Of a DNA stretch of 46,060 nt, positions 4,780 to 35,819 are shown piece after piece. The DNA lies in the NCBI GenBank assembly GCA_028280565.1, contig JANQLQ010000004.1, positions 1 to 46,060 on the forward strand, written 5' to 3'. The notes below the pieces were generated by a model that saw nothing but the letters and a program-made list of their open reading frames with translations, had not been told where the DNA came from and did no database searches. How positions within the stretch are numbered: position 1 is the stretch's first letter; each line of letters starts with the position of its first letter. A program made the position numbers and the translations under genes. Source of the DNA: Fulvivirga sp. GTDB taxonomy: Bacteria; Bacteroidota; Bacteroidia; Cytophagales; Cyclobacteriaceae.

Positions 4780-5898
4780 TCAGTTCTTTTCACCTCGCAT
4801 GTTCTTGTCTTGCCTTTTTTTCACCATGCTATGTTGCAGGCGATTGATGTTGGGGTCCTCTGACATGAAATTCCACAGGCGAATGGTGCCGTCTTGGTGC
4901 GCAGATACCAAGAAGCTGCCGTCCGAATTGAAATCGAGATATTCAGCCCCGTCGATGACGTCCGACTGCCATGCCACGGGTATCCTTTTCATCGCTTCGT
5001 CCAGGATGGTTTCCATACGAAGGATACGTATGTAGGGATCATTCCCGGCGGTAAGGAGATATTTGCCGTCCGGTGTAAAATCAATCGTCTCTATCTTTTG
5101 GCCGGTGTTGTTAAACTGCCGTATTTTCCTGCCGGAAGCTACTTCCCAAACGTAGATCTCCCCATAAAAGCCGGAGGATACCACGTATTTATCATCGGGT
5201 GAGAAACGAACGGTAACACCGCCTTCTTTCTCATCGGCTTTAAAGGTTTTAACAAGTTCCATCTTATTTTGCACATCCCAAACCCGGGCCTCGGAGTTAT
5301 CACCGGTAGAAACGATATACTTGTCATCGCTGCTGAAATGTAAGGAGTTCACGGTTGCTCCATGATTTACCTCGTATTGCAGTGTTCCCCCAGGCATGTT
5401 GAATACCCGGATCTTACCTACCCCTTCCCCGGATTCCTCCTCGCCGGTAGCCAGCCAAGTTCCATTATTTGACCAAGTGAGTGCATCTATACCTTGGGTG
5501 TGCTGGAGCTTTTTGAGCAATTCACCGCTTTTGGCATCGTAAATACGCACTAGGTAATCTTCGCTGCAAGAAGCCACCACGGAGCCATCCGGGGCCCATC
5601 CCACACGTTCGATCTCCTCGTCTGTTTCGGCGCGCCAAAGCTCCGTGCCGTCTGAAGTTCGCCACATCACCACTTGGTTATCGAACTTGGTCCCGGACAC
5701 GATGTAACGATTATCCTTGGAGAATTCGGCACTTTCTACGGAGCCGTACTCCCCGTACAGATCGGCTACCCTCACCCACACGGGGCTTAGCCTCACACTT
5801 TTCTCTTGTTGTGCGTGTACGGCTTCACTCGCCAGCAGCAGGTGAAAAACGATCAATATCCCTATAACTTTTCCTTGTTGATTCAAATTCATTTTCAT
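4780..5898 (-). CDS. Exported WD40-repeat beta-propeller protein
   Basis: The 372-residue protein has an N-terminal signal peptide (hydrophobic core at about residues 12-27 ending AVHAQ), so it is likely periplasmic. About seven WD40 blades follow between residues 55 and 345, each with the F/W-S-x-DGKY-V-S/T-G pattern and ends such as VRIYD, ARVWD, IYVWE and IRLWN. A positively charged tail follows (KKRQDKNMRGEK). WD40 propellers serve as binding scaffolds; no catalytic motif is visible. It lies 13 bases upstream of nothing but its own spacer and 13 bases downstream of the aquaporin gene, so the two are almost certainly cotranscribed. The role in the catabolic locus is unknown. Confidence 0.8.
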   Translation of the reverse strand: MKMNLNQQGKVIGILIVFHLLLASEAVHAQQEKSVRLSPVWVRVADLYGEYGSVESAEFSKDNRYIVSGTKFDNQVVMWRTSDGTELWRAETDEEIERVGWAPDGSVVASCSEDYLVRIYDAKSGELLKKLQHTQGIDALTWSNNGTWLATGEEESGEGVGKIRVFNMPGGTLQYEVNHGATVNSLHFSSDDKYIVSTGDNSEARVWDVQNKMELVKTFKADEKEGGVTVRFSPDDKYVVSSGFYGEIYVWEVASGRKIRQFNNTGQKIETIDFTPDGKYLLTAGNDPYIRILRMETILDEAMKRIPVAWQSDVIDGAEYLDFNSDGSFLVSAHQDGTIRLWNFMSEDPNINRLQHSMVKKRQDKNMRGEKN

Positions 5899-5911: not shown

Positions 5912-6634
5912 TTACTGCAAAACATTAAATACAATTGCTGCCAGCACCCCTCCTGCCACTGGCCCCGCTACCGGTATCCATGCGTAGGACCAGTCACTTT
6001 TGCCTTTATTGGCGATGGGCAAGAGGGCATGGGCAATTCTTGGCCCTAAGTCCCGGGCAGGGTTGATAGCATACCCCGTGGGACCACCTAAGCTCAGACC
6101 GATCCCCAGCACCACCAGGGCGACAGGCAGTGCATCCAGTGAGCCTAAGCTACCGGGCTCTCCGCCCATGGACGGCCCGGTGATGTACAGCACGGCAAAC
6201 ACCAAGACGAATGTGCCGATGATCTCTGAGGCCAAATTGTCCCACGTAGAACGGATCGCCGGCCCGGTACTGAAAGTGGCTAGGATCATGGCTGGATCTT
6301 CGGTATCGCGATAATGCAGGCGATAATGCACCCACACCAGGCTGCTCCCAATAAAGGCACCGATCATTTGTGCTGCGATGTACACCGGTACCTGGGCCCA
6401 ATCAAACTTACCTGCCGCCGCTAACCCCACGGTCACCGCCGGGTTAATATGTGCGCCACTGTAGGGACCAACGATGAACACCGCCATGAACACGGCTATA
6501 CCCCATCCGAAAGTGATCACGATCCACCCGCTGCCAAACGCTTTGGATCCTTTAAGCAATGCGTTAGCCACCACACCATTCCCAAGAAGGAGGAGGATAG
6601 CCGTACCGATGATTTCACTGACGAAAGGTGACAT
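5912..6634 (-). CDS. glpF: MIP-family aquaglyceroporin (glycerol facilitator type)
   Basis: The 240-residue membrane channel has both half-helix NPA motifs of the major intrinsic protein family: [13 protein letters not shown] (near residue 68) and [13 protein letters not shown] (near 192). Aspartate directly after NPAR is typical of glycerol-conducting members, whereas water-only aquaporins usually have serine. Six membrane spans are apparent and length is normal. It would let glycerol or small polyols diffuse across the inner membrane. The neighbouring dhaK/dhaL genes fit polyol or triose use, but no glycerol kinase or glycerol dehydrogenase gene is in the run, so the physiological solute stays open. 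Confidence 0.88.
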
Positions 6635-6969: not shown

Positions 6970-7944
6970 CTAATCATAAATCACAGGGTTGACCACATTT
7001 GGTGGAGTTTTTCCTTCCAAAGCAGCCACCAAGTTTTCAACCGCCATCGTTGCCATTTTGGTCCGCGTCGCGATCGTGGCACTGCCTATGTGTGGTAGCA
7101 GTACTACGTTATCCATCTCCAGTAACCCGGGATGTACTTTTGGCTCTTCTTCAAATACATCCAGGCCGGCCCCGGCGATCTCTTTGTTTTTAAGGGCCTC
7201 TACCAAGGCATTTTCATCGATGATCGGTCCACGGGCGGTATTGATGATATGGGCGGTATTTTTCATAAGCATGAATTCCTCCGCGCCAATAAAATGATGG
7301 GTCTCACGGTTATAGGCCGTATGGACGGATATAAAATCCGACCGGCGCAACACCTCTTCCAACGGTCCGTAAGTCACACCAAGTGCTCTTTCTTCCTCTT
7401 CGGCCAGCCGGGTCCTGTTCCAATACACTACCCGCATATTGAAGCCCTGTGCCCGTCTTGCCACGGCTTTGCCAATGCGCCCCATGCCTACGATGCCTAA
7501 GGTAGAATTGTAAACATCGGTACCTAAAAATTGTAAGATCCCCCATCCGTGCCATTTGCCGTCCCGCAAGTATCGCTCGGATTCCGTGATACGACGAGCG
7601 CTGGCCATGAGCAGGGCAAACGCCAGGTCAGCGGAGGTTTCCGTCAATACGCCCGGGGTATTCGTTACGGGGATCTTAAGCTCGGTAGCTTTAGTCACAT
7701 CAATGTTGTTGAACCCCACGGCTACATTGGCTACCACCTTTATATGTGCACTTGCCGCCAAGATCTCGGCATCGATGTTTTCCGTCAGCAGGCACAACAG
7801 GGCCTGTTTATCTTTTAACCCTTCCATGATGGATTCTTTCGTGACGTTATCGCTGTTGAGAAGTTCTGCCGAAACACGATCGTTCAACAGTTCCATGGCT
7901 TTCGGAGGCAGTTCGCGGGTCAATAATATCTTTGGTTTTGTCAT
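6970..7944 (-). CDS. D-isomer-specific 2-hydroxyacid dehydrogenase (glyoxylate/hydroxypyruvate reductase type)
   Basis: The 324-residue NAD(P)-dependent enzyme starts KILLTRELPPKAMELL. It has the Rossmann motif LGIVGMGRIGKAVARRA (near residue 150) and the catalytic triad: Arg in NTARGPIIDE (near 238), Glu in VFEEEP (near 268) and His in LLPHIGSA (near 286). It most resembles GyaR/GhrB-type reductases that turn glyoxylate into glycolate or hydroxypyruvate into D-glycerate. In this run it could reduce the short oxo acid released by an aldolase or hydrolase. The exact substrate is inferred only. It lies 69 bases after the TIM-barrel gene. Confidence 0.88.
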   Translation of the reverse strand: MTKPKILLTRELPPKAMELLNDRVSAELLNSDNVTKESIMEGLKDKQALLCLLTENIDAEILAASAHIKVVANVAVGFNNIDVTKATELKIPVTNTPGVLTETSADLAFALLMASARRITESERYLRDGKWHGWGILQFLGTDVYNSTLGIVGMGRIGKAVARRAQGFNMRVVYWNRTRLAEEEERALGVTYGPLEEVLRRSDFISVHTAYNRETHHFIGAEEFMLMKNTAHIINTARGPIIDENALVEALKNKEIAGAGLDVFEEEPKVHPGLLEMDNVVLLPHIGSATIATRTKMATMAVENLVAALEGKTPPNVVNPVIYD

Positions 7945-8013
7945 GTGTTTAAAAGAGAATACCTAGGATTTAAGACATAGTTTTTAAGTGTTACATTAAG
8001 TTCAATTTGTACT

Positions 8014-8934
8014 TTAAAGGGTTAATTCCTGCCATGCTGCTTCTAATTTGCGCTTGGTGTTGGCTACCACCAAGCCAGGGGCTTCACTACCTACCGGTTT
8101 TACTTCAAACGATACGATGGCTCGTGAAGAACCATCTTTTTTTAAGTAACCGATCTCGAAAAGTTCGCGTAAAAATTCTACAATCTCGGGCACATCATTT
8201 TCCCCGCCGGGATAGCCAAAGCGCGGGTGCAGGTCACCATAGGCGGCGTTGTCTGTATCCTTCATATAGCAATTCCCGATATGGATATGGCGGACGTATT
8301 CTTTTACAGGCTGCAGCGCCTCTGCCGGGGATTCATGTAATAATGGGATATGGCTAAGGTCTACCATTAAACCAAAATTGTTATGCTTCGCGGTGACCCT
8401 GGCAGCGATCTCCTTCGCATCGGCCGCGGGCCCAATAAGACAGGCTTTGTCTATCTTTTGGTCAAACACTTCCAAGACGATATGGGCAGACTTGGAAGCT
8501 GCGTAAGCGCAAATCTCATCCAAAGATCGCTCGAGCTGGTCCATGGATTTTCCCTTCTTTTCTTCCCCGGCATACTTTCCGCTGAGGATGCCAATATCAT
8601 GAATACCCATGTCCACCGCATCATCTACGGCTGCCTTCACCTCTTGGACGGCTTCCAGGCGTTCGGCATCTTCTAAATGGTTGAGATCTAGCTTTTGGCT
8701 CAGTAGCCTGGGTTGCGCGCCATACTTCACCTCTATGCCACTGGTCTCCAGCATTTGCCGCGCTTGGGCCCTTACTTCAGGGTCTTTTATCCACGTGATC
8801 TCCACCACGTCAAAGAAATGATCATCCAGGATCGCCCCAAGTGTTTCTAATACCGGTCCTTCCCCCAGCAGTACAGGGTAGGCCATGAAATGCACGAGGC
8901 CAGGCTTGATGAAATGATTTAAAGGTTTATCCAT
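8014..8934 (-). CDS. Sugar phosphate isomerase/epimerase-like TIM-barrel protein
   Basis: The 306-residue protein fits the xylose-isomerase-like TIM barrel (AP_endonuc_2) family. Predicted metal ligands sit at barrel-strand ends: Glu in IVLEVFD (near residue 154), Asp in LMVDLSHIP (near 193), His in VRHIHIGN (near 218) and Glu in VSFEVKP (near 279). Family members isomerise or epimerise ketoses, hydroxypyruvate or inosose compounds with a divalent metal. Placed among dhaK, dhaL and a class II aldolase, it is the likely isomerase or epimerase step that makes the ketose for phosphorylation. It has no signal peptide and should be cytoplasmic. Confidence 0.82.
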   Translation of the reverse strand: MDKPLNHFIKPGLVHFMAYPVLLGEGPVLETLGAILDDHFFDVVEITWIKDPEVRAQARQMLETSGIEVKYGAQPRLLSQKLDLNHLEDAERLEAVQEVKAAVDDAVDMGIHDIGILSGKYAGEEKKGKSMDQLERSLDEICAYAASKSAHIVLEVFDQKIDKACLIGPAADAKEIAARVTAKHNNFGLMVDLSHIPLLHESPAEALQPVKEYVRHIHIGNCYMKDTDNAAYGDLHPRFGYPGGENDVPEIVEFLRELFEIGYLKKDGSSRAIVSFEVKPVGSEAPGLVVANTKRKLEAAWQELTL

Positions 8935-8978
8935 TCGTATTCGATATTAGTGATCCATTGTTTAATGAAGGTTAATGA

Positions 8979-10670
8979 TTACATCCATGGGTCTGTCACG
9001 CCCAAAATAAAAATAGCAATGAGCCCGAGCACACCTGCCACCGTTACATAATACAAGGTAGGAATGACGGTCTTTCGCAAGGTTTTCCCCTCTTGCCCGA
9101 GCAGCCCCACGGTAGCCGAAGCGGCCACGATGTTATGAATGGCGATCATATTACCGGCAGCTGCTCCTACGGCTTGCAATGCCACGATCATACTCGCTGA
9201 CAACGAGAGCGAAGTAGCGACTCCAAACTGGAAGAGGCTGAACATCAAGTTGCTCACCGTATTTGACCCCGCAATAAAAGCGCCTAAGGCCCCTATGGTG
9301 GGAGCAAAAAGAGGCCACACTGACCCTACATTTCCCGCTACCCATTCTGCCATGGCAATGGGCATGCTGGAAAGCCCGGTTTCGTTCATCCCCGAGTTGA
9401 TGTACACACGGACCATGGGAACCGTGAAGATCAAAACGAACCCTGCACCTAGTATGATCCTGCCGGAATCTTTAAAGGCGGCCACTAAACCCTTTGGCTG
9501 CATGTCATGCAAGAAATAGGTAATGAATACAACGAACAACAGGATGGTGCCGGGCAGGTAGAGTATGGTGGTAGAGCCGTTGATACCTGTACCTAAAATG
9601 TCATTCCATTCTATGGCAAAGGCACTCAGCAAGGACTTGATGGGTAACTGGTTCAGCCGGCTTAGCACTAAGAATAAGGCGACTAACAAGTAAGGTATCC
9701 ATGCTTTGACCAAGCCCATCTTTTTCTGCCCTTGGATCTCACCCAAGTCCATTTTTAAACTGCCCATCCAGCTTTTAGGCCAATCCTTTTCCGGGGCGAA
9801 ATCCCAAGTATCTTTGGGTAACAAAAAGCCACGGCGAGCGGCATAAATGACAATGGCCATGCCTATTAAAGAGCCTAGCAGGCTCGGGAATTCCGGCCCG
9901 AGCAATATCCCGGTAAAAGCATAGGGAATGGTGAAGGCTAGCCCCCCAAACAAGGCAAAAGGCCAAATGGAAAGCCCTTCTTTCCAAGACTTGTTACGCC
10001 CAAAAAAGCGTGTCATCATGGCAGACATGAACAAAGGCATCAGGGTGCCTACCAAAGCATGAATAATGGCCACCTCCACGGTGATGATCTGCAAGTAATC
10101 CATAAAAGAGAGCCCCGAAGCGGCCAGCTTATCCGTGAGTGCTTGATGTTCCAGCCCTCCATTCACCCCGACTAAGATAGGGGTGCCGGCGGCGCCGAAT
10201 GTGACCGGTGTACTTTGGACCATCATACCCAACATGACCGCGGTAGCTGCCGGGAAGCCCAATGCCACGAGCAGCGGGGCGGTAAGCGCGGCTGGCGTAC
10301 CAAAACCAGCCGCACCCTCGATAAAAGCACCAAACAGCCAGACAATAATGACCATCTGCACCCGGCGGTCGGCGCTGATATCTGAAAAACCGTTCCGGAT
10401 AACCGTAATGGCGCCAGAATACTTCAGCGTATTAAGCAGTAGCAGAGCCCCGAATATGATATAAAGAATGTTGAACGTAATAAAAAATCCTTGGATCGTG
10501 GAGCCTATCACGTTGATTATGCCCATCTCCCAAGCAAAATAGGCGATCCCCACGGCTAAAAAATAGACGATGGGCATGGCTCGCTTGGCGGGTTGGGAAA
10601 ATCCCACCATTAGGACTGCGGCGGCTAAAATGGGCATAAAAGCCAGGAGGGCTTGCAAGGAAAGTGGCAT
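8979..10670 (-). CDS. L-lactate permease (LctP/LldP) family transporter
   Basis: The membrane protein of about 563 residues from [11 protein letters not shown] has a dozen or more hydrophobic spans and LctP-family segments such as [37 protein letters not shown] [14 protein letters not shown] near the C-terminus, and [19 protein letters not shown]. This family imports lactate and glycolate, and probably other 2-hydroxy acids, with protons. The frame is open to 10733, but that start would overlap dhaK, so the ATG at 10668-10670 is preferred. With a 2-hydroxyacid dehydrogenase two genes away, glycolate, lactate or glycerate are plausible substrates. Confidence 0.88.
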
Positions 10671-10711
10671 ATTACGATTACTATGATGTGTATATCTATG
10701 ACTCGAAAATC

Positions 10712-11707
10712 CTAGAATACCCGTATGGCACACTCTGCCGGGGCGGCAAGCAGTTCTTCCAGTTCATTGTCTAACTTAAGCAGGGTCAATGAGACACCTG
10801 CCATTTCGAGCGAGGTGCAGTATTCTCCTACATAATTTCTTACCACTTTCAAGCCATTGCCTTCACAAAGCTGTGCGGCTTTGCGGTAGAGGACATACAG
10901 TTCGCTGATAGGGGTACCTCCCAGCCCGTTGATCATCAGGGCCACCCTATCCCCCGATTGGAAGGGAAGGTCTTTGTACACTGCGTCGAAGATCTCTTCC
11001 ACGATGGCATCTGCGGATTTTATTTTATCCCTTCTTCTACCCGGTTCGCCATGTATTCCCACGCCTACTTCTATTTCATCTTCTCCCAATTCGAAGATGG
11101 GCTCGCCTTTGGCCGGCGGTGTACAGGAGCTCAGGGCTACTCCCATGCTTCTCACATTGTCATTCACCTTATTCCCCAAGGCTACCAGCTCTTCCAGGCT
11201 GGCTCCATTCCCAGAGGCTGCACCGCAGGCTTTTATGGCGAAGAAGTTACCGGCCACTCCTCTCCTGCCAAAGGTGTGGGTGCTGTTCTCCACCGCTACA
11301 TCATCATCGATGACGACTGCGCCCACTTTTATTCCTTCTGCTTCGGCCATCTCTTTGGCCATTTCCCAAGCCATTTTATCCCCTTGGTAGTTATTGACAA
11401 TGTATAGCACTCCTTTTTCCGAATTCATAAGCTTCAGGCATTCGAAGGCATAATCCACCGGGGGCGCCGCGAATACATTACCGGGAGCGGCGGCATCTAA
11501 CATGCCTTTCCCCACCGCCATGATATGGGCCGGTTCGTGCCCACTGCCCGAGCCTTGTACAATAGGCACCTTGTCGTTAGGATTAAGATCGGCGCGGTAA
11601 ATGATATTGTATTCTTTGACATATTTTAGTTTTCCCGGGTTGGCCATGATAAGGCCTTCCATCATTTCGGGTACAAAATTAGCGGGGTCGTTAACGAATT
11701 TTTTCAT
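10712..11707 (-). CDS. dhaK: Dihydroxyacetone kinase subunit DhaK (or a related ketose kinase subunit)
   Basis: The 331-residue protein has the DhaK fold. [10 protein letters not shown] (near residue 52) binds substrate, and [12 protein letters not shown] carries the histidine (near 219) that forms the covalent hemiaminal with the keto group of dihydroxyacetone in characterised Dha[16 protein letters not shown] fits the C-terminal half. The usual F.SP substrate-site segment reads VFAAPP here, which might reflect another ketose. DhaL is encoded separately just upstream. No DhaM, EI or HPr gene is in the window, so an ATP-dependent two-subunit kinase is more likely than a PTS type. The product would be a ketose 1-phosphate for the adjacent aldolase. 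Confidence 0.9.
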
Positions 11708-11720
11708 ATTGAATGTATGT

Positions 11721-11768
11721 TTAGTGGATTAGTGGATTAGTCTTGAGTCCTTGGTATTGAGTATTGAG
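11721..11768. repeat. Short tandem repeats in dhaL-dhaK spacer
   Basis: TTAGTGGA occurs two and a half times at 11721-11740. Seven-base units follow at 11741-11775: TCTTGAG, TCCTTGG, TATTGAG, TATTGAG, TCAAAGA. The tract lies inside the 367-base-free but gene-poor spacer of 165 actual non-coding bases between dhaK and dhaL. No other signal is seen there. Confidence 0.5.
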
Positions 11769-11872
11769 TCAAAGAGCCGGTGGTTTGAAACAGGGAGTGC
11801 CTGGCTTTCATGTTGTTCCGGTTTTGGCCCACGGTAGATCATTACGCTGAATTTCAATGATTTGAGCCTCGT

Positions 11873-12505
11873 TCATTCTTGTCCTACGGTTTCGAGGTTT
11901 TTCATGATGGTGGCGATGGCTACTATACCGGGGTCGGGAGTACCAGCGCTTCGCTCACCGGTAAACGATTGCCTGCCGCGTTTTGCCACCCAGTCTTTCG
12001 TGGTCTCTACGGCATCTTCAGCGGCCTTAGTGGCCATGGCTATCACCCCTGTATGGTCTTTGTCTTGGGCGTGTTGTTCAAACACCTCCGCCACGGGGAT
12101 AAGGCCATCAATAAGGGTTTTGTCCCCTACTTTGGCGCCTCCGCGGGCCATAATGCCTTCTATGGCAGAACGCATCATAGAGGCTACGTCAAGGAGGCTG
12201 ATCTCTTCTTTCCCCTTGGCTTTGATGCCCGCCCGCATGAAGGCTGTACCCCATAGCGGCCCGGAGCTTCCTCCTACATTGCCGGTGATGACCATGCTGA
12301 CCTTTAATAAGAAGGCATTGATGGAGCTACGATCATACTCTTCCCATTTGTCTAGCACCACTTTAAAGCCGGTGGCCAGCGAAACGCCGAAATCAGCATC
12401 TCCAGCGGCGGCATCAAGGTCTGAAAAGTATTTTTCATTGGCGATCGCTGTATTGGCTATGCTCTTCACTACAGCTTCGACATCGTGTAAATCGAATGTT
12501 TTCAT
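11873..12505 (-). CDS. dhaL: Dihydroxyacetone kinase subunit DhaL
   Basis: The protein of about 210 residues from MKTFDLHDVEAV is the nucleotide-binding DhaL subunit. The metal-binding motif reads LDAAAGDADFG (near residue 31): the three aspartates that bind two Mg ions are kept, but the usual GDGDHG/GDGDTG has Ala and Phe at the variable places. GGSSGPLWG (near 80) and the C-terminal DPGIVAIATIM also match the family. The start at 12503-12505 lies 10 bases after the phosphatase stop; the longer open frame to 12580 would overlap that gene. Together with dhaK it should phosphorylate a ketose at C1 using ATP. The altered motif might mean a non-standard substrate or nucleotide geometry. Confidence 0.88.
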   Translation of the reverse strand: MKTFDLHDVEAVVKSIANTAIANEKYFSDLDAAAGDADFGVSLATGFKVVLDKWEEYDRSSINAFLLKVSMVITGNVGGSSGPLWGTAFMRAGIKAKGKEEISLLDVASMMRSAIEGIMARGGAKVGDKTLIDGLIPVAEVFEQHAQDKDHTGVIAMATKAAEDAVETTKDWVAKRGRQSFTGERSAGTPDPGIVAIATIMKNLETVGQE

Positions 12506-12515
12506 CTTTCGGGCA

Positions 12516-13238
12516 TTATGCGTTATTCTTTTTTTGTACAATTTGATGCAGGTCCGCCAATGTGACCCGGGCAGGATCATCGCCTAGCTCGGGAACGACC
12601 TGGTCCGCTTCGGTAAAGTCTTCTTCAGTGGTGTAAGTGCTGGTCGTTACTACACAGCTCATCCCTGCTTGGGTGGCGGCCAATAGGCCATTTCTACTGT
12701 CTTCGATGACCATACAGTCCTTAGGGTCTAGCGAAAGCTCGTCCTTGGCCAAATTATAGACGGCCGGATCCGGTTTTTTCTTGGCGACTATGTCGCCAGC
12801 GAATATTCCTGCGAATTTCACCTCTCGTCCCGGTCCCAGCAGGTGATGGACCACGGCCCTTACCGCTTTTTCATTGGAAGTGGAGCATACGGCCAACGTA
12901 ATACCTTCTTCAATGGCTTCGTCGATAATGCGCTTGATGCCGGGGCGTACGGCAAGTTCCCCGGATTCGATGATCTTCATGAAAAGTTCCGTTTTATCGG
13001 CATGCAAGGATTTGATAAGCGATCCCTTATCTGCGATGCTTTCGGGCCAACCGTATTCTTCAAAAAAGTGTTTCATTCGCTCTTTGCCGCCAGCCACTTT
13101 TAGCAGTTCACCGTAGCGCTCGACATCCCATTCTGCATCGATCTTGTTTTTCTTAAAGGCTTGGTTAAATGCCACGCGGTGGCCGTCACGCTCGGTGTCT
13201 ACCAATACCCCGTCACAATCAAAAATCAATGCTTTCAT
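12516..13238 (-). CDS. CbbY-like HAD phosphatase
   Basis: The 240-residue HAD hydrolase starts ALIFDCDGVLVDTERDGHR, holding the nucleophile aspartate (DCDGV) and a TERDGHR-x-AFNQAF cap segment that closely resembles CbbY, the xylulose-1,5-bisphosphate phosphatase of RuBisCO-bearing organisms. AGGKERM in the cap, CSTSN (motif II), KKKPDP (motif III lysine) and VIEDSRNG (motif IV) complete the set. Its ATG overlaps the aldolase stop by four bases (ATGA), implying translational coupling. No RuBisCO gene is here, so it probably removes phosphate from a ketose phosphate or bisphosphate made in this pathway, or repairs a dead-end product. Confidence 0.88.
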   Translation of the reverse strand: MKALIFDCDGVLVDTERDGHRVAFNQAFKKNKIDAEWDVERYGELLKVAGGKERMKHFFEEYGWPESIADKGSLIKSLHADKTELFMKIIESGELAVRPGIKRIIDEAIEEGITLAVCSTSNEKAVRAVVHHLLGPGREVKFAGIFAGDIVAKKKPDPAVYNLAKDELSLDPKDCMVIEDSRNGLLAATQAGMSCVVTTSTYTTEEDFTEADQVVPELGDDPARVTLADLHQIVQKKNNA

Positions 13239-14125
13239 ACGCTTTGCTTTTGGATCTCTCCTAACATGGCAGCGCCTTTCCCGGCTCCGCCGAACTCGGT
13301 CATTTTAGCGCGGAACAGCTCTTTCATAGCTTCGAACTGGGCTCCCAGCACCTTTAGAGGCTCGTAATCCTTGGGGTGATCTACATGGTATTGTGCAAAG
13401 CTGTCTACAAAGATGTGTTTCAGGTTGGTAGAGATGTTCACCTTGGCGCACCCCAGCGAGATACACCGTGCAATGGTCTCCTCGTCCAGCCCGGTGCCCC
13501 CGTGAAGGGCCATAGGCGTTTGGGTACGTTGGTATATTTCTTCGATCAAGTCGAAGGCTACCTTGGGCTCTCCATGATAGTATCCATGGGCAGTGCCTAT
13601 GGCGGCGGCAAATACACCCAGGTCGAATTCTTTGCAAAAACGCTCCGCTTCATCCGGGTTGGCGAGGTGTGCATCCTCTTCTGCTACTATGATGTCCTCC
13701 TCTACTCCACCGATCTCCCCGATCTCTGCCTCGATGGCCAGCCCCCCTGCCGTAGCCATGTCATAGACCTGTTTGGTGATCTCGAGGTTTTCCTCGAAAG
13801 GGCGGTCGGAGGCATCGATCATCACGGAGGTCCAACCGGTTTCTATACATTTTTTGATCATATCCAGGTCCTTGCCATGGTCCAAATGGAGTGTTACCGG
13901 TACGGGGGACTCTCCTGCCAATTGTTTATACCACGACGCCAAAGGCTCATGACCGTAATACCGGATCGTTTTTGCCGAAGTTTGCATGATCAAGGGGGCG
14001 TCAATTTCTTCCGCTGCTTCTACCATAGCCCTCATCGAGGCATAATCTACGGGATTGAAGGCCGCTACCGCATAACCGCCACTTCGAGCGATACGGAGCA
14101 TTTGTTTAAAGTTTACTAGTGCCAT
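13235..14125 (-). CDS. Class II (Zn-dependent) fructose/tagatose-bisphosphate-type aldolase
   Basis: The 296-residue enzyme matches the FbaA/KbaY/GatY family. It opens with FKQMLRIARSGGYAVAAFN. Zinc ligands are His in LHLDHGKD (near residue 83), His in IGTAHGYYHG (near 180) and His in ALHGGTGLD (near 208). AEIGEIGG carries the conserved Glu loop and NISTNLK the phosphate-binding segment. Such enzymes cleave ketose 1-phosphates or 1,6-bisphosphates to dihydroxyacetone phosphate and an aldehyde. Coupling to the HAD gene and closeness to dhaKL suggest it acts on the DhaKL product rather than in central glycolysis. Confidence 0.9.
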   Translation of the reverse strand: MALVNFKQMLRIARSGGYAVAAFNPVDYASMRAMVEAAEEIDAPLIMQTSAKTIRYYGHEPLASWYKQLAGESPVPVTLHLDHGKDLDMIKKCIETGWTSVMIDASDRPFEENLEITKQVYDMATAGGLAIEAEIGEIGGVEEDIIVAEEDAHLANPDEAERFCKEFDLGVFAAAIGTAHGYYHGEPKVAFDLIEEIYQRTQTPMALHGGTGLDEETIARCISLGCAKVNISTNLKHIFVDSFAQYHVDHPKDYEPLKVLGAQFEAMKELFRAKMTEFGGAGKGAAMLGEIQKQSV

Positions 14126-14127
14126 TT

Positions 14128-14158
14128 TAGTTATTGGTTATTAAGTAATCGGTTATTG
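14128..14158. repeat. Degenerate seven-base repeat between aldolase and dehydratase-like gene
   Basis: AGTTATT, GGTTATT, AAGTAAT and CGGTTATT follow one another in the 107-base gap. It has the same seven-base rhythm as the other spacer tracts, with different unit sequence. Confidence 0.5.
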
Positions 14159-14232
14159 GGGTGCTGTCTATTGTTATTGTTAGATCATTCATTATTTGAT
14201 AGGTTTTGTATTTGCTTGATCGCCCGTAAAGA

Positions 14233-15468
14233 TCAGTTGATCTTATCCCGTTCGATTTGAGATTCATTAAGTTCGAGTCCTAGCCCCGGTCCATTGGGCA
14301 GGGTGACTTGCCCGGCTTGATACGCCAGTTGGTCTTTAAAATATCTTTGCAAAACGCTTTCGCTTCTTCCTGCCAGGTCGTACTCTTGGAAGTCACTGGC
14401 ATTATGAATAGCGGCAGAAAAATGGAACATTGCGGCCGCCGCCAGTTCGGTCCCTTCATGGCGGCACATGACGGGTACGTCAAATGCTGACGCTACCGTG
14501 GCGATCTTAGTCGCTTCTGTGATCCCTCCTGCCTGGCAAGGCCCGGGGTGGATCCTATCCGCCCTTCCTCGCAAGATAAGCTCTTTGAATTGCCAGCGGT
14601 TAAATGCATGCCGACCCGCTGCTACCGGTATATCCAGAGCATCGGCTACCTGCGCAAGGCCTTTGAGATTATGGGCGTCGACAGGTTCTTCAAAAGAAGC
14701 TATGTTGTACTTTTCGTACAGCGTTTTTCCTACCCGGATGGCTTTATTGACAGGGTAATTGTTATTAGCGTCGAAAAACACGGTGACCTGGTCGCCAACA
14801 GCTTGACGAACTTCACGGGTCAGTCCTGGTGAAACACCCGGGGTGAGGGATGGGGTTAGTTCTCGGGCTTGCATTTTTATCTTTACCGCATCGTATCCTT
14901 TTTCAACCAGCTCTTCGGCCCTGTGCGCCGCTTGTAAACCAGGGTTGGGGAGCCCTAGGTCGACATGACAACTACCGTAAACTTTGATTTCTTCCCTGTA
15001 CGGGCCTCCTAGCAATGACCAAACCGGCTGCCCAAGGAGTTTACCCTTTAAATCCCACAAGGCATGATCTATGCCCGCAATTGCTCCTGCCAGTAAACCA
15101 TTCTGGCCGGCGTCTACCTCTTTGAAGAACATGAGGCTCCACAAGTATTCGGTATCCCAAACGCTTTTGCCCTCTACCCTTCCCTTCAACTCGTTGATCA
15201 TGCCTAGCACGATCGGGGCGTAATTTCTATTAGCCTCACCCCATCCTATGACGCCTTCGCTGGAGGTGACCCTGACAAAAAGGGCGGCATGGCCTGGCAT
15301 GAGAAATGGGTCTATGGAACGGATGGTAACGTTGGGTTGGGAAGCAAACGAGGTGCGTGGTCCAGGGATCGCTTTATTCCATTCGTTGAAAGGCATAAGG
15401 CTGAGCATACCTAATCCCCCCGAGGCTTTAAGGAATTCTTTGCGTGTAAGGTTGATCATTTCTTCCAT
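14233..15468 (-). CDS. Enolase-superfamily enzyme (mandelate racemase/sugar-acid dehydratase type), divergent active site
   Basis: The 411-residue protein has an N-terminal TRKEFLKASGGLGMLSL segment resembling a Tat-type signal, then the MR/MLE capping and barrel domains. IDHALWDLKGK (near residue 134) is a family hallmark. The catalytic KxK is VKIKMQ (near 198). Metal ligands are Asp in FFDANNNY (near 236) and Glu in FEEPV (near 261). The third expected Glu, AGEH in the neighbour, is Arg here (AAGRHAF, near 286). The C-terminal catalytic-His region is also altered (CRHEGTE). Starting three bases after the paralogue's stop, it may be a partner or a re-tuned enzyme. Dehydratase activity is inferred. 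Confidence 0.85.
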   Translation of the reverse strand: MEEMINLTRKEFLKASGGLGMLSLMPFNEWNKAIPGPRTSFASQPNVTIRSIDPFLMPGHAALFVRVTSSEGVIGWGEANRNYAPIVLGMINELKGRVEGKSVWDTEYLWSLMFFKEVDAGQNGLLAGAIAGIDHALWDLKGKLLGQPVWSLLGGPYREEIKVYGSCHVDLGLPNPGLQAAHRAEELVEKGYDAVKIKMQARELTPSLTPGVSPGLTREVRQAVGDQVTVFFDANNNYPVNKAIRVGKTLYEKYNIASFEEPVDAHNLKGLAQVADALDIPVAAGRHAFNRWQFKELILRGRADRIHPGPCQAGGITEATKIATVASAFDVPVMCRHEGTELAAAAMFHFSAAIHNASDFQEYDLAGRSESVLQRYFKDQLAYQAGQVTLPNGPGLGLELNESQIERDKIN

Positions 15469-15471
15469 CTT

Positions 15472-16725
15472 TTAAGGCTGGTAAATGTTCGCCTTGGTGA
15501 TCGCTTTTTCGTCCACCTCCATCCCTAACCCCGTGGCCCCGGGAACGGCGAGGTGGCCCTTATCCACTTTCAGTTCGTTTTTGAAATACTTCTGCAATCC
15601 CATCCAATACCTAGGCCCCGCATACTCTTGGTATTCGGCGGCATTGGGGCAAGAGGTCACAAAATGCAACGCCGTGGCCGTGGCCAACCCGGGGTATGCA
15701 TTATGGATCATAAATCGCCTATCAAAGGCTTGGCCCAAAGCCGCTATCTTTTTGCATTCGGAGATACCAGAGGATTTGATCAAGTCTGGGTTAAGGATGT
15801 CTACGCCGCCGATCGTGACCAGGTCGCGAAAGTGCCAACGGGTGTACTCGTGCTCTCCCGCCGTTATTGGGAAATCCAATGCTTCGGAAACCTCCTTCAG
15901 TTCATGGTAATTGTTCATCGTAACAGGCTCTTCTATCGAAGCAATGTTGTACCACTCCCTAAGCTTTTGACCGTGTTCAATGGCGCGGTGGGCGGTGTAG
16001 CCATTATTGGCGTCAAAAAAGATCGTGATATCGTCTCCCACGGCCTTTCGCACTTCTTTGACAGTTTCGAATGAAGGGTCAGGATTTGGATCGATATTCA
16101 GCTGGCGGATCTGCATCCGTACTTTAATGGCTTCATAACCTTGATCCACATAGTCCGCAGCTATTTTAGCCATTTCGAGTGGTGTTTTTTTGCCACTACG
16201 ACCGTATTGTTCTTTTTCGTGGCTCTTGATATTGGCCCCAAAGCTGCCGTATAACTTGATCCTGCTTTTAAACTTACCGCCCAACAGCTTGTAAACAGGC
16301 ACGTTAAGAGCCTTGCCTTTTAGGTCCCATAAAGCGATATCTATCCCGGAAAGGGCGCCCGCCAACAGTCCGTGGGCGCCTTGCGAATAGGTTTTGAAAT
16401 AGGCCAGCGTCCAGAGTTTATCGATTTGAAAAGGATCTTTGCCTAAGAAATGCGGCTTGAGCACTTTTTCAATAAAATCACAGCAGATGAGTTTGTAATC
16501 CTTATCTGCCTCTCCCCAACCCGAGACGCCCTCGTTGGTCTCAATCTTGACGTAAACGGCGCTGTTGCTCACCTTGGGCTCGGGCTTGGGGTGAAACACT
16601 TTGATACTGGTTATCTTCAAACCTGACCGGGGTCCATCCAGCAAGGCTTCCTCGAATTCCTGGGGTGTGCTTTTGCCAAACAAAGATGAGATGAAGGCCC
16701 TCCTATTCTTATTGTTATTTCGCAT
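15472..16725 (-). CDS. Enolase-superfamily sugar-acid dehydratase-like enzyme
   Basis: The protein of about 417 residues from MRNNNKNRRAFISSLFG belongs to the mandelate racemase/muconate lactonising group. IDIALWDLKGK (near residue 135), the base motif AIKVRMQ (KxR variant, near 205), Asp in FFDANNGYT (near 241), Glu in IEEPV (near 267) and Glu in TAGEHEYTRW (near 292) give the complete Mg-binding set. FMIHNAYPG (near 342) supplies the second catalytic His candidate. Family members abstract the alpha proton of a sugar acid and lose water to give a 3-deoxy-2-oxo acid. The frame is open to 16761, but the Met at 16723-16725 gives a signal-like RR start. It is paired with a divergent paralogue. 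Confidence 0.87.
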   Translation of the reverse strand: MRNNNKNRRAFISSLFGKSTPQEFEEALLDGPRSGLKITSIKVFHPKPEPKVSNSAVYVKIETNEGVSGWGEADKDYKLICCDFIEKVLKPHFLGKDPFQIDKLWTLAYFKTYSQGAHGLLAGALSGIDIALWDLKGKALNVPVYKLLGGKFKSRIKLYGSFGANIKSHEKEQYGRSGKKTPLEMAKIAADYVDQGYEAIKVRMQIRQLNIDPNPDPSFETVKEVRKAVGDDITIFFDANNGYTAHRAIEHGQKLREWYNIASIEEPVTMNNYHELKEVSEALDFPITAGEHEYTRWHFRDLVTIGGVDILNPDLIKSSGISECKKIAALGQAFDRRFMIHNAYPGLATATALHFVTSCPNAAEYQEYAGPRYWMGLQKYFKNELKVDKGHLAVPGATGLGMEVDEKAITKANIYQP

Positions 16726-16784
16726 TTGATTGTGTGATCGTTGGGGGAATATTCCCTGCACATTCCCCCTTACTACGCATTTTT

Positions 16785-18389
16785 TTATCGAATACTGCCG
16801 TCCTCATTTTTACACCATTCCCCTTCGGCCGTCCAGTCGTTTTCCGCAGACGCTATAGCCCCGATAAAGCTGACCGGGTCAAACCATTCTCCTAGGGTGG
16901 AAGCGTCCAGCGCGGCTGTGGCAGTGGATCCTACCCATTGGTTGACATCTACGGACCCTACGGGAGTGTCAAAAAGGGTATTGGCCGGATCGTCGAAACG
17001 GGTTTGGGCTTCCCGGGCATAGTTATCGTCATTGTCCCAAGAGTGGCCGTGGGTAAGCACCACGCTGTTGTCAGCGTCGTTGTCTAGCCGAATAGCATCA
17101 TCCGGGAATTGTGTGACTAAGAAGTTATGGTATTGCCCTGAAGCGCCTTGCCGAATGCGTAGTCCCCGGTTTCCTTTTTCCGGGACTTCATTTTTAGTTT
17201 CTTCTCCCGGGCCGACGAGGGTAAAGTTGGAAATGACAGGTGCCGTCCTGGGCAAAGCGTCAAAAGCGGCATCATTGTTTCTCACTTCGAGTGCCCTGGG
17301 ATCGTCTTCGTTGGCCAAGGCCTGGGCCACCCAAAACTGGCCAAAACCTCTCCATCCGTGCCGGCAATTAAAGGAATGGTCCAGTGCCCCTACTACTACG
17401 GCGTTTCGTACGTTTACCGTGCCTCCGAAGACCTGTATCCCGGCATTCCCACTGTTAAATGACTGGATATGATCTATCCTTGTCCCTGATCCTACGGCAT
17501 TCAAGATGATGGCGGCGTCAGCATTACCGCCCCCGGCATATTCCACCCGCACGTAGCTCAGCCTGCCGCTGCTTTCTTCATCATCTTGCCCACCGAAAGT
17601 GCCGGCAGCGCCTAGGTTGAGGTCATTCCCGGTAAGATTGACCTGGCCGTTCCCTAAAATGTATAGTCCTTCCCAATCCCCTGCTGATTCTTGCCCCGAT
17701 CCTGCCAGCACTCCTGAGGAAGTGAAAACGATGGGTTCTCTAGCAGTACCTTCCGCCTGTATGGTGGCGCCGGGTTGTATGGCTAAGAAAGAAGCGCTAT
17801 CACCGTAAATGATCGTGCCGGGTTCAAGGGTGAGTGTAGCTTCATCCGTGATCACGGTGGGTCCGTCTAATATCCATGGCTGGTTGCTATCGAGGGTAAG
17901 GTTCTCATCGACCCTGGCTACATCACCCCCGAAGGCCACTAATCTTTTGACCGTTGTACCCCCGGCAGTCTCATCTTCCACATCAAATGTTTTTTCGCGG
18001 ATGCCTAAGGAGAGCGTAAAGGGTTCGGTAGTACGATCTTCCAGGTCCGTGGCGGTAAGCACAAAGCTCAAGGTATTTCCGACCAGGTTTGTGTCCAATG
18101 CTATGGAATACTCCAGTCCAAAATCATCAAGGAAAGTGCCGGGTTCATAGCTTCTACTATCAAAAGCTGCGCCATCGAGTGTCACTTCCAACGATCTTAA
18201 GCCGGCCGATGCGCTGATCCTAATGGTTTTGACGAAAGTCTCCCCTATTTTTTCCACCTCGTTGGTGATGCCGTCCTCCACAAATATGGACGGCCCGGGC
18301 CTAAGATGGTCTTCATCTTCACAAGATAGCATCAAAAATACCATCGGTACCCATAAGAAGTAACTGGGGTTTATAATTGTATTTTTCAT
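16785..18389 (-). CDS. Surface lipoprotein with parallel beta-helix domain
   Basis: The protein of about 534 residues from MKNTIINPSYFLW has a lipoprotein signal ending MLSC, with EDED right after the cysteine. Acidic residues there match the Bacteroidota surface-export signal, so outer-membrane surface display is likely. Residues about 150-330 contain LTLEPGTIIYGDSASFLAIQP, DWEGLYILG and LSYVRVEYAGGG, typical of right-handed beta-helix partners of TonB-dependent receptors. It lies 15-33 bases after the receptor gene. It may capture or process the ligand for that receptor. No polysaccharide lyase active site could be identified. Confidence 0.8.
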   Translation of the reverse strand: MKNTIINPSYFLWVPMVFLMLSCEDEDHLRPGPSIFVEDGITNEVEKIGETFVKTIRISASAGLRSLEVTLDGAAFDSRSYEPGTFLDDFGLEYSIALDTNLVGNTLSFVLTATDLEDRTTEPFTLSLGIREKTFDVEDETAGGTTVKRLVAFGGDVARVDENLTLDSNQPWILDGPTVITDEATLTLEPGTIIYGDSASFLAIQPGATIQAEGTAREPIVFTSSGVLAGSGQESAGDWEGLYILGNGQVNLTGNDLNLGAAGTFGGQDDEESSGRLSYVRVEYAGGGNADAAIILNAVGSGTRIDHIQSFNSGNAGIQVFGGTVNVRNAVVVGALDHSFNCRHGWRGFGQFWVAQALANEDDPRALEVRNNDAAFDALPRTAPVISNFTLVGPGEETKNEVPEKGNRGLRIRQGASGQYHNFLVTQFPDDAIRLDNDADNSVVLTHGHSWDNDDNYAREAQTRFDDPANTLFDTPVGSVDVNQWVGSTATAALDASTLGEWFDPVSFIGAIASAENDWTAEGEWCKNEDGSIR

Positions 18390-18422
18390 TTTTCCGTTGT
18401 TAAACATGAGTGAATAGGGCGA

Positions 18423-21400
18423 TCATAACCGGTAAGAAACCCCAAAACGAGACCACCAAGAGAAAAAGCCTACATCGAATATCCTATCTCGTGACCCCAG
18501 GTATTGTAACTGCGGCTGGTTGGTCACATTGATGAATTCCGCGTATATCCTGAACCTATCATCCAGTTGCTGGGAGGCATTCAAGTCGAGCTGGTAACGC
18601 GACTCCCTTAAGATATCCGTGGATGCATCGGCACCCAGGTCCTCGATAAGGTCATCTTGGTAATTAAGGGAGGCTTTTGCCGAGAATCCTTTGTAATCAA
18701 AAGTAATTGCAGCGTTCCCGGTATGGTCTGCCTGGCCGGGGAGCCTTATCCCGGTACGATCACGGGTGAAGGCATCGGAACTGGTGTAGGTATAATTTAA
18801 GAAGAGGTTGATCCCTTTCAGTATGCCCGGCAGGAAGTCTAAGTTAGCTTGAACATTCAATTCCAGGCCCCATACTTCAGCTTCGTCCCCATTTAAAGGC
18901 TCATCTACCCGGTAGATCACCCCTGGCAGGATACCCAGGTCTGGGAAGAGGGTGGCTCCTTCTACCTGTGTCCGGCTGTTGAACTGGAAGTTTTCAATCC
19001 TTTTATAAAAGCCATTGATAGACAGGATCCCCACATTTCCTAGGTAGTGTTCGAACATGAGATCATAATTCCAAGCTATCGGCGGGAGTAGGTTAGGATT
19101 TCCACGTATCACCCTTTCATTTTCAATATTGATGTTGGTGGTAGGTACAATATCTCCAAAATTCGGCCGGGCAAAAGAGCGGGTAACAGCCGCCCTAATG
19201 TTGGTAAATTTGCTTAGACTGTACTTGAATTGCAGGTTGGGTAACCAAAAGTCGTAGTCAGTGCCATCGGTAACAGGTCTGCGGGTAAGGGTATCATTGT
19301 CTTGTATGGTTTCTATGGCGCTATATTCCACGCTGATGTCTTCATAACGGACACCGGCGAGGATCATAAGTTTATCCTTGATCTGTAGTTTGCCCATGAG
19401 GTATGCTGCATTGGTAGTTTCAGAAGCGTCATAAAAAAAAGGTTCATCCTGGTTGGCCTCTTCTTCCGGGTCCCTTGCAAAATCCGACTGGTTATCGTTA
19501 AAAAAACTATTGACAGCACCCGTATTGATCGCTGGGCCAAAGGTGACATTGTCGTCTAGGAAGTCTGTACGTATAGCGCCATAGTCGGCGAAGGAGGCAT
19601 ACAGTCCGTCGCTGTCCTGCTGGTATTCATAGGCTTGGGTCACCCTGCTCCTTTCACTATTGGTGACGCGGTGTTTATAGCCTGTTTTGATCAGCCCGGT
19701 GTTTGTTCCCAGTTTGAACGGGTGGGAAAGGTGGAGCCTCCCCACAATATTCTCGTTACTATTTACCCGGCTGTAAGTTTGGTACTCGTTCCATTCGTTA
19801 TAAATGGTAGCATCATCCAGCCGAAGGATAGGGTCTACGGAAGTGATCTGCGGAAAATCCGAGGTGAGGTCAGACAGCCCAAGGTCAATTTCCCGGTTCC
19901 TGAAATCGGCTAGGGCAGCATTTTCATCTCGCTCCGTGGTGGTGTAAAAACCGGCAGCTTCCAGGGAAAGGTTACCTAGCACGAAATTCCCCTGCAGGTT
20001 ATAGTTAAAGTTATCCCTTTGCACTACCCTGTCACGGAATGTTTTACGTACCTGGGCATCCCTGCTGAAGGTAGGTGTTCGATCGCTGCCGCTGTTCATA
20101 CGGAAGCGTGTCCGGAATCTTTCTTCGTCTTCCTCTAATATGCTGTACATAAAGTTAAATCGTATGGAAGAAGCTTGGTCTAGTTTGTAATCCAGGTTGA
20201 CCCCCGCCCCTGCCCGGGTCCTTTGCGTAACGAGCGCGCGCAGGTCGTGCTCGGCCAGCGCCAATTCTGTTCTTTCTTCTCCATCGGCCGAGTAAGTCAG
20301 CTCTTCCCATTCCGACTCGGTACGGTCTTCGCCGTTATCTGTTCTAAAGAAGCTGCCGCTTAGCAGGACGCCCAGCCGGCCTTGGCTCACTTTATCGTCC
20401 GGGAAAAAACGTTGTCCTAGCGAAAGGCGTCCAATGCCATTCACCCCTTTTGACAGGTTATTATACCCACTTCCTGCTTCGAGTTTTACCGAAGGAGTAA
20501 GCCGGGTGGCCGTAGGCGGTAGCATATTGACCACACCCCCGATCGCGTCGCCGTCCTGGTCGGGAGTGAGGGATTTGGTTACTTCTATGGAGCCCAATTG
20601 GTCTATGGGATACATGGTGAGAGAGGGGCTCCGGTCGCCACCTACCCCATTGCCAGGAAGCTGTTCCCCATTGACTTGTATAGAGGTATAATTTAGGGGG
20701 GTTCCGCGAATTTGTACGGAAGAGCCCTCACCATTGTCGCGGCCTATGTTGATCCCGGGCACCCTTTGCAAGGCCTCGGCAGTATTCAAGTCAGGGAACC
20801 TGCCGATAAGGTCTGCCGAGATGATGTTCTTAATGTTGTCTGCTGCTTTTTGCTGGTTGAGCGCACGCGTCTGCCCTTCAAGGCTGCCTGTTACCACCAC
20901 TACGGCCAGGCTTTGCACATCTGGCGACAGTGAAAAATTGACCTCTACCATGCTTTTTGATTCTACATTGACTACTTGTTCTGACTCGGCGTAACCAATG
21001 TAAGTAGCTACAACGGTTTGGCGTCCTGCCGGAATATTGAGTATGATGAATTCGCCCTGTAGGTCTGTCGCGGCTCCTATCGTAGTTCCTTTTACGTATA
21101 CCGAGGCGCCCGGTAAGGGCTGTTTGGTAGTGGCTTCAATCACCCTGCCGGTGATGGCTCCTATCTTTCCCGCTTTTTTCGCCGGGGCCGGGTCTATACG
21201 CCGGGATAGGATGATCTGGTGTTTGTGTAAGTGTGCATTGATCTTATGGGGGCGCAACAGCGAAACGAGTACGTTTTTCAAGGGCTCACCACGCGTTTGA
21301 ATCGAAACGTGATGAGAGAGCTCCACAAAATCCTCGCTGTAAACAAAAGAGACTTCAGCTTGTCTCTCAATCTTGGATAATACGGCCTTCAAAGTGACTT

Positions 21401-32888: not shown

Positions 32889-32899
32889 TCCTGTTTGAT

Positions 32900-35191: not shown

Positions 35192-35198
35192 AGCTGTG

Positions 35199-35819
35199 CT
35201 ATTTTATCTTTTTTGCTGCGGCTAACGTGGCTTGAAATACATGTGGGTAAGTGCCACAACGACAGTAATTTCCCCTGGTAGCGTGTTTTACATCTTCCAA
35301 TGTAGGATTAGGATTCTCCTCGAGCAAATGCGCTGTGCTCATGATCATACCGGGAGTACAATAGCCACACTGCATAGCGTCATGATCTATAAATGCTTCT
35401 TGTATAGGGTGGAGTTGACCATCGACGGCCAGCCCTTCAACGGTGGTCACTTCGCGGTCGCCTACGTCCATGGCAAAGGTCATGCATGCATTGACCGGCG
35501 ACTTATCGATCCAAACGGTGCAAGCCGAGCAAGAGCCGCGGTCACATACCACCTTGGTGCCGGTCAATTGTAGCTTATCTCTCAAGGCCTCGGCCAGTGT
35601 GGATCTCGGCTCAACAGCTAGGGATCTCACCTTACCGTTTACCTTCATTTCTATGGTAACAGGGTCCGGACCCACCGTTTTTGATTCTTCGGTCTTTTTA
35701 CCGTCTTTCCCTAAAACACCGGTTTGAAGTACTATGGTCCCTGCCGTGGTTAGGCCCGCCCCTTTTAGAAATCCACGCCTGCTAGTACCTTTTTTGGTAA
35801 GTTTTTCGTTGTTTTCCAT
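35199..35819 (-). CDS. Tat-signal [2Fe-2S] subunit of molybdenum hydroxylase (PaoA/YagT type)
   Basis: The 206-residue small subunit begins with a twin-arginine leader (TSRRGFLKGAGLTTAG). Cluster I cysteines appear in CDRGSCSACTVW (near residue 95) with a later Cys in NACMTF, and cluster II cysteines in CGYCTPGM (near 147) and CRCGTYPH (near 187). It relays electrons from the Mo cofactor to FAD. The order small-large-medium subunit is that of paoABC (yagTRS); the pao accessory chaperone gene paoD is not present nearby. The Tat leader implies the whole enzyme works in the periplasm. Confidence 0.92.
   Translation of the reverse strand: MENNEKLTKKGTSRRGFLKGAGLTTAGTIVLQTGVLGKDGKKTEESKTVGPDPVTIEMKVNGKVRSLAVEPRSTLAEALRDKLQLTGTKVVCDRGSCSACTVWIDKSPVNACMTFAMDVGDREVTTVEGLAVDGQLHPIQEAFIDHDAMQCGYCTPGMIMSTAHLLEENPNPTLEDVKHATRGNYCRCGTYPHVFQATLAAAKKIK

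Follow-up and report, generated by a model that had tools for sequence, protein, structure and literature searches.

The stretch of DNA analysed here (the window, 46,060 nucleotides of contig JANQLQ010000004.1 from a Fulvivirga sp. genome of 9.05 Mb) carries a run of close-packed genes, all on the minus strand, which open reading frames (ORFs) and family searches trace from position 22658 down to 4780. Within it lie genes for a class II aldolase, a CbbY-type phosphatase and the dihydroxyacetone (DHA) kinase-family proteins DhaL and DhaK, which form a conserved cassette, and the run as a whole is very probably a composite of three modules, presumably for small polyhydroxylated compounds. This modular split is the firm result of the analysis. 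From the upstream end, the genes are as follows.

21684-22658, minus strand: FecR, the upstream end of the run.
18423-21557, minus strand: TonB-dependent receptor with plug and barrel domains (Pfam matches; 63% identical to that of a sister genome).
16785-18407, minus strand: lipoprotein-like secreted protein (ORF; 60% identical to the sister genome's; lipoprotein start judged by eye; no Pfam family at 1e-5).
15472-16725, minus strand: MR1, a dehydratase-like protein of the enolase superfamily, mandelate racemase (MR) type (PF13378/PF02746; catalytic positions kept in the alignment; ORF opens at 16761, start placed by a relative).
14233-15468, minus strand: MR2, an enolase-superfamily paralogue (metal ligand and catalytic Asp lost, as aligned with MR1 and the sister MR2; twin-arginine translocation (Tat)-like leader by eye).
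13235-14125, minus strand: class II aldolase of the FBA family, cassette gene 1 (PF01116; TIGR00167, 256 bits against a cut-off of 215.6).
12516-13238, minus strand: CbbY-type HAD phosphatase, cassette gene 2 (4uav, E 4.1e-81; placed by the tree with plant xylulose 1,5-bisphosphate (XuBP) phosphatase).
11873-12505, minus strand: DhaL, cassette gene 3 (TIGR02365, 172.3 bits against 138.3; ORF opens at 12580, start placed by a relative).
10712-11707, minus strand: DhaK, cassette gene 4, assigned by residues and tree to a clade with Asn at position 104 (TIGR02363, 419.9 bits against 406.25).
8979-10670, minus strand: LctP-family permease, lactate/glycolate type (TIGR00795, 350.5 bits against 341.15; ORF opens at 10733, start placed by a relative).
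8014-8934, minus strand: TIM-barrel protein of isomerase/epimerase fold (PF01261; structure model with ketose 3-epimerase fold).
6970-7944, minus strand: D-2-hydroxyacid dehydrogenase (D-2-HADH), glyoxylate/hydroxypyruvate-reductase type (PRK13243, 382.8 bits, under the cut-off of 455).
5912-6634, minus strand: MIP channel, aquaglyceroporin Gla/LarD type (TIGR00861, 181.6 bits against 171.25; 60% identical to the MIP adjoining a Cryobacterium cassette).
4780-5898, minus strand: WD40 protein, the 3' end of the run (PF00400; 84% identical to the sister genome's).

A sequence-only reading had described ten same-strand genes between 6970 and 16725. The families it listed (D-2-HADH, TIM barrel, DhaK, DhaL, CbbY-like HAD protein, class II aldolase and two enolase-superfamily proteins) and their shared strand stand, but the interval holds nine genes, the LctP-family permease had been left out, and the boundaries were too narrow, with the MIP and WD40 genes lying downstream and the lipoprotein-like protein, TonB receptor and FecR upstream.

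The cassette recurs outside the genus. A tblastn search of plasmids found DhaK at 61% identity in Cryobacterium pA10BH1, where the order is aldolase, CbbY, DhaL, DhaK, MIP, a heme-binding protein, TpiA (on the opposite strand), RpiB, a split transketolase and GntR, and adjacent genes for CbbY (64-65%) and aldolase (51%) in Shinella. Among 345 genomes from the class of an Actinomycetaceae metagenome-assembled genome (MAG; L057, G594), DhaK was matched at 1e-95 in 15, ten of them at 64-68% identity, followed by a gap down to 51%, and all ten carry the order aldolase-CbbY-DhaL-DhaK. These hosts are presumably actinobacterial, since the search centred on an Actinomycetaceae MAG and their G+C content is 65-74%. 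They are not ten independent cases, because seven of their aldolases are 89-100% alike to the reference L121; the other three, at 67-73%, make up a second group. As a control, aldolase or CbbY was found in none of 17 other DhaK loci, eight of which offer just ~1.5 kb of flank per side. In nine of the ten genomes the gene immediately upstream of the aldolase encodes a GAF-domain regulator; in L126 the regulator gene is ~5 kb away. The one regulator tested (L118) is a GAF/histidine kinase/response regulator/LuxR fusion, and neither the Cryobacterium nor the Shinella loci yielded such a gene. The TIM, D-2-HADH, LctP, TonB, MR and lipoprotein genes are absent from all 11 non-sister cassette loci (the ten and Cryobacterium; stretches of ~12-31 kb). 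Of the one dedicated unusual-sugar pathway that had been proposed, the kinase-aldolase-CbbY core is thus conserved outside the genus, while the isomerase and dehydratases belong elsewhere; what stays together in related genomes is the four-gene core, and the whole set does so only in one sister genome.

The Shinella aldolase-CbbY pair is clustered with FGGY and GlpD-type genes, with TpiA ~10 kb away. Its identification as a glycerol operon, from the DUF2160 and GlpD-type names, was weakened by the score of the kinase, which is XylB/LsrK-like and not that of a glycerol kinase. The same set of FGGY, GlpD-type and DUF2160 transporter genes occurs in Phyllobacterium (L191, 7204-21503), where the stretch also has a GAF/Fis regulator, an aldehyde dehydrogenase and a thiamine pyrophosphate (TPP) enzyme, and no aldolase or CbbY is annotated.

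Both kinase subunits in the window exceed curated family cut-offs, and DhaK keeps the positions of His56, Asp109 and His218 (E. coli numbering), which we take to be catalytic. In a midpoint-rooted tree of 13 cassette, 13 canonical and six other DhaK rows, the cassette rows group together (support 100/100) apart from the canonical kinases (90/82), and the six others, some on long branches, form a third group (100/99) drawn from sugar-ABC, threitol-dehydrogenase (DthD) or class I aldolase contexts. Position 104 follows this division, being Asn in 13/13 cassette, Lys in 13/13 canonical and Gly in 6/6 third-group rows, and position 80 is Ala in 13/13 cassette rows versus Ser in 13/13 canonical rows; both residues presumably line the DHA pocket. 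Judged by tree and residues, the cassette DhaK falls outside the canonical DHA-kinase clade, in a clade of its own. Within the canonical group, DhaM adjoins DhaK in L194 and L195, as annotated, and in three genomes going by their coordinates, and L199 has a phosphoenolpyruvate (PEP)-phosphotransferase there. No DhaM match was found in the window's own genome or in the sister genome, so the window kinase would have to use a donor other than DhaM. DhaM is present in 10/10 other cassette hosts, lying either at least 39 kb away from the cassette or on a different contig, and three of these hosts have a second DhaK adjoining it.

Other DhaK arrangements were seen in passing. A Gly-104-group DhaKL adjoins a DeoC/LacD-family aldolase in a genome of the same family (L007, 2256-4818; G313), another pairing of DhaK with an aldolase, and in Aureimonas (L200, 370-5780) two DhaKL sets lie by a GolD/DthD-family dehydrogenase, one DhaK being fused to a sugar-binding regulator.

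The window CbbY matches Arabidopsis CbbYA (E 4.1e-81; 56% identity over 224 residues) more strongly than R. sphaeroides CbbY (3.8e-44), and its GGKER and HAD motifs are present. In a 21-row tree, the window, AtCbbYA and Shinella rows group together (97/99) with RsCbbY outside, the AtCbbYA row being flagged for odd make-up, whilst the rows of the ten genomes and Cryobacterium do not settle among bacterial CbbY. On this placement the window protein is assigned to the group of the characterised plant XuBP phosphatases. The plant enzymes remove the 1-phosphate of XuBP, ~5000-fold and ~1000-fold more efficiently than they act on ribulose 1,5-bisphosphate, according to one paper (PMC10212915), and a review (PMC9833046) describes XuBP-phosphatase orthologues as believed absent outside photosynthetic organisms. 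No RuBisCO (PF00016) match was found in the own or sister genome, and CbbY as a part of the Calvin cycle was therefore rejected for the own genome; 3/10 other cassette hosts do have a match to this family. Among plasmid relatives of CbbY, four lie in Calvin-cycle gene sets, one in Skermanella has an FGGY kinase and a sugar transporter as neighbours, and one is near gph and gap in a stretch without RuBisCO.

The aldolase is a second copy, one other PF01116 gene lying on another contig of the own genome. It scores over the broad subfamily TIGR00167 and under the fructose 1,6-bisphosphate (FBP)-type equivalogs TIGR01859 (292.1 against 343.05) and PRK12857. A NIST-x-x-K motif, present in 10/10 aligned cassette or Shinella aldolases, was dropped as a cassette signature because other paralogues share it. 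The special ketose branch anticipated by the sequence-only reading is borne out to the extent that DhaK groups outside the canonical clade and the aldolase stands beside another copy. These same features make ordinary DHA or glycerol assimilation, with the four enzymes in textbook roles and CbbY as a spare fructose bisphosphatase, unlikely: the family scores of DhaK and DhaL, the kept His/Asp positions of DhaK and the MIP channel would all suit it, but the DhaK clade is non-canonical, CbbY groups with the plant XuBP phosphatases, the aldolase is second to another copy and the own genome is without a DhaM match.

We tentatively favour a condensation in the order DhaKL, aldolase, CbbY; this chemistry, including the substrates and the aldolase direction that it assumes, we give a little less than an even chance. 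In this first module (aldolase, CbbY, DhaL and DhaK, with MIP), DHA or a close ketone would enter through MIP and be phosphorylated by DhaKL at C1 to DHA phosphate (DHAP) or a relative; the aldolase would build a ketose 1,n-bisphosphate from DHAP and an aldehyde phosphate, in the simplest case glyceraldehyde 3-phosphate; and CbbY would strip the C1 phosphate in a one-way step, leaving a ketose monophosphate of the fructose 6-phosphate or xylulose 5-phosphate type. Condensation is favoured because TpiA lies near the Shinella and Cryobacterium clusters, because of the link to MIP and because of the C1 specificity expected of CbbY. As regards MIP, a role as a DHA/glycerol channel is plausible because relatives (56-58% identity) lie near canonical DhaK in 5/8 loci.

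Several observations weigh against condensation. DHA may not be the substrate of the cassette DhaK, since that protein has neither the Lys-104 nor the Ser-80 found in the canonical clade, and a DHA kinase appears already to be present in the other hosts, since DhaM lies elsewhere in all ten and a second DhaK beside it in three. MIP adjoins the cassette in just 3/13 cassette loci (window, sister and Cryobacterium), and the XylB-like score of the Shinella kinase suits cleavage of a ketose 1-phosphate better. The aldolase is missing the FBP-type Asp at the position where we take it to lie; other paralogues are missing it too, so this is not telling. Known XuBP phosphatases are, according to the review, only weakly active on FBP (PMC9833046).

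Such a cleavage is a possible but doubtful alternative. Here the Asn-104 DhaKL would phosphorylate a C4-C5 ketose at C1 and the aldolase would split the product to DHAP and an aldehyde, for example glycolaldehyde, which the hydroxyacid module would handle, with CbbY as a repair enzyme clearing side-product ketose 1,5-bisphosphates. It would account for a separate Asn-104 clade, the Gly-104 DhaKs being found with sugar-ABC, DthD or class I aldolase genes, for the Shinella FGGY and GlpD-type genes, which would yield a ketose 1-phosphate without DhaKL, and for the linkage, in the window, of a module of the glycolate type. Against it, the C1 phosphatase that every cassette carries would work in opposition to a C1 kinase, the gene run shows no aldehyde dehydrogenase, the MIP channel suggests C3 compounds, and the role of residue 104 is one that we presume.

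Returning to condensation, a further and rather unlikely extension is that an XuBP-type intermediate is used on purpose without RuBisCO. Cytophagales-type Bacteroidota and Actinomycetota would then share a portable one-way aldol route, from ketone and aldehyde phosphate through a ketose bisphosphate to a ketose monophosphate, made up of a kinase from a third class of the DhaK family, a class II aldolase and an XuBP phosphatase of the plant type.

The second module (LctP, TIM barrel and D-2-HADH) would import glycolate- or glycerate-type acids and interconvert intermediates at the level of hydroxypyruvate and glyoxylate. An alignment of four TIM proteins was scanned against genome contigs, where 193 stretches matched and 154 were confirmed; locus counts refer to the best 80 of these 154, all of which were examined. 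D-2-HADH lies within 2 kb of the TIM gene in 37/80 loci, and the next four 2-kb bins hold 3, 1, 1 and 0 (flank covered in the five bins: 300, 257, 227, 195 and 171 kb). The pairing is common, not universal, as 43/80 loci have no D-2-HADH within 4 kb. LctP occurs within 8 kb in 6/80 loci, all with D-2-HADH, one being the sister genome and one a weak 27% match. The sequence-only reading had the isomerase feed the ketose branch, a proposal that is not supported: the commonest partner of the TIM gene is D-2-HADH, and DhaK, DhaL, aldolase or CbbY matches occur among the 80 loci in the sister genome only.

Analogy with relatives points to glyoxylate/hydroxypyruvate-level chemistry, because glycolate-oxidase-like, TPP-enzyme and glycerate-kinase genes are neighbours there. 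In Opitutaceae (L012), TIM, D-2-HADH and LctP share the locus with a gene of the aminotransferase family, one judged GlcD-like by eye and another that resembles GlcF (316.9 bits against a cut-off of 333); in Confluentibacter (L016), the TIM/D-2-HADH pair lies with a YdiJ-like fused oxidase, LctP and an aminotransferase under every cut-off; glycolate-oxidase-like neighbours were also seen by eye in L014 and L026. The TIM gene of Enterococcus gilvus stands between a TPP enzyme and D-2-HADH with glycerate kinase, beside allantoin genes, and TPP-enzyme or glycerate-kinase genes occur near 13/80 loci, ten of the 13 with D-2-HADH. The single PF02913 match in the own genome, a long fused flavoprotein that resembles the L016 one at 38%, is not telling for glycolate oxidation.

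The classical glycerate route is not supported for this module, as glyoxylate carboligase (Gcl; TIGR01504) has no match over the cut-off in 6/6 genomes, the own one included, a point that counts against the scheme as drawn. Nor was the identification of the TIM barrel as hydroxypyruvate isomerase retained, given this result and the different context of 19/80 relatives. The protein is under every NCBIfam equivalog cut-off, with weak matches to IolO, fructoselysine and psicose epimerases, and its AlphaFold2 model (predicted local distance difference test 96.1) retrieves, among the 50 rows listed, proteins of the ketose 3-epimerase fold with 14-20% identity, a result that points to no substrate.

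The 19 loci of this second context (L044, L045, L047, L048, L049, L054, L056, L058, L060, L062, L063, L068, L070, L071, L076, L077, L079, L083 and L087) have a Tm-1-like ATP-binding and/or creatininase-family protein, named by eye and from Thermus annotation. D-2-HADH lies within 4 kb in 0/19, being farther off in L068, whilst a Zn alcohol dehydrogenase occurs in 15/19, a TctA-type transporter in 15/19 and LacI in 11/19. This looks like a separate pathway; the sister run also has a creatininase-family gene.

The third module (TonB receptor, lipoprotein and MR1/MR2) would provide outer-membrane uptake and one active-looking dehydratase, and the TonB receptor with FecR suggests regulated uptake of some larger compound. 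MR1 keeps, in alignment, the positions of three metal ligands and of the His/Asp dyad, as placed by the presumed motif. In the window MR2, Arg replaces the third metal-ligand Glu, Gly replaces the dyad Asp and the His is displaced; the sister MR2 retains these, and the window copy looks inactive from its residues. Both proteins start with twin-Arg/Lys motifs, with a clear leader in MR2 alone (by eye), and a periplasmic site is possible. The sugar-acid branch that had been joined to the ketose branch is weakened accordingly, with the dehydratase pair in 0/11 other cassette loci and MR2 apparently inactive. A loose link between TIM and MR genes is conceivable, because, the sister aside, three of the 80 TIM loci have MR-family genes (L032, L033 and L039; weak matches).

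The order from TonB receptor to WD40 is identical in a second genome of the genus, at 60-92% protein identity and with an additional creatininase-family gene between DhaK and LctP, and given this the gene order exceeds chance. The nearest named relative with the same run is the Flammeovirgaceae MAG BBD 1991-12 (we take BBD to mean coral black band disease). The full run is known from two genomes in all, the own and one independent genome, because L006 (G304) and L011 are the same contig. DhaK was found in 2/15 genomes of the genus (own counted) and in 3/38 relatives overall, the third at 45%; the TIM barrel, at 1e-10, in the own genome only of 295 from the class, a sample that did not include the sister; and CbbY in 2/296 of the phylum sample at 1e-25 (own counted), the other match at 30%. 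Given this patchy spread, the run was probably acquired by transfer. Keeping of the whole order in the sister genome is what a single dedicated pathway, in which all genes, those of a sugar-acid branch included, served one unusual ketose or branched polyol, would predict, but the modules lie apart in the other loci examined and MR2 has lost catalytic residues, making this very improbable.

Elsewhere in the window, a PhoD-like alkaline phosphatase with a Tat-like leader (by eye) lies at 2553-4469, and three genes at 31881-35819 resemble by eye a molybdenum enzyme of the xanthine/aldehyde-oxidase type (FAD, large and 2Fe-2S subunits, the last with a Tat-like leader).

The earlier statement that no described pathway has this set agrees with the literature covered, where searches with the gene-set terms, or for CbbY joined with dihydroxyacetone kinase, found no paper, weak evidence of absence given that most subscription papers lie outside the collection searched. 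Set against known systems, the window resembles glycolate/glyoxylate-glycerate use of the glc and gcl-hyi-glxR type in its LctP-type permease, D-2-HADH and TIM barrel, and some relatives do so in their glycolate-oxidase-like or TPP-enzyme and glycerate-kinase neighbours; it differs in a TIM barrel under equivalog cut-offs, the lack of Gcl over the cut-off and the lack of an oxidase in the gene run. MR1 appears to share its metal and His/Asp positions with enolase-superfamily enzymes of the galactonate dehydratase type, whereas both MR proteins are under the PRK14017 cut-off of 311 (MR1 221.7, MR2 199.2) and MR2 is degenerate. The aldolase is a full-length PF01116 protein like the class II fructose/tagatose-bisphosphate aldolases, within TIGR00167 but under equivalogs such as TIGR01859.

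CbbY is like the plant CbbYA in identity, motifs and grouping and differs in its setting, not beside RuBisCO and in a genome without a RuBisCO match, being known here from its sequence. A candidate plant-group XuBP phosphatase in such a genome would run contrary to the belief stated in the review (PMC9833046). The neighbours of CbbY here are a kinase and an aldolase, the cassette being conserved in a second phylum (Cryobacterium), and the four enzymes offer a small, testable set for finding the further role of this phosphatase. Compared with the DhaKL(M) DHA kinases, the window proteins share the family scores and the H56, D109 and H218 positions, whereas DhaK belongs to its own clade, with N104, A80, S52 and P82, in a genome without a DhaM match. 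A third DhaK clade is thereby marked out, and the pattern of Lys, Gly or Asn by clade at residue 104 could aid the annotation of many genes now called "DHA kinase".

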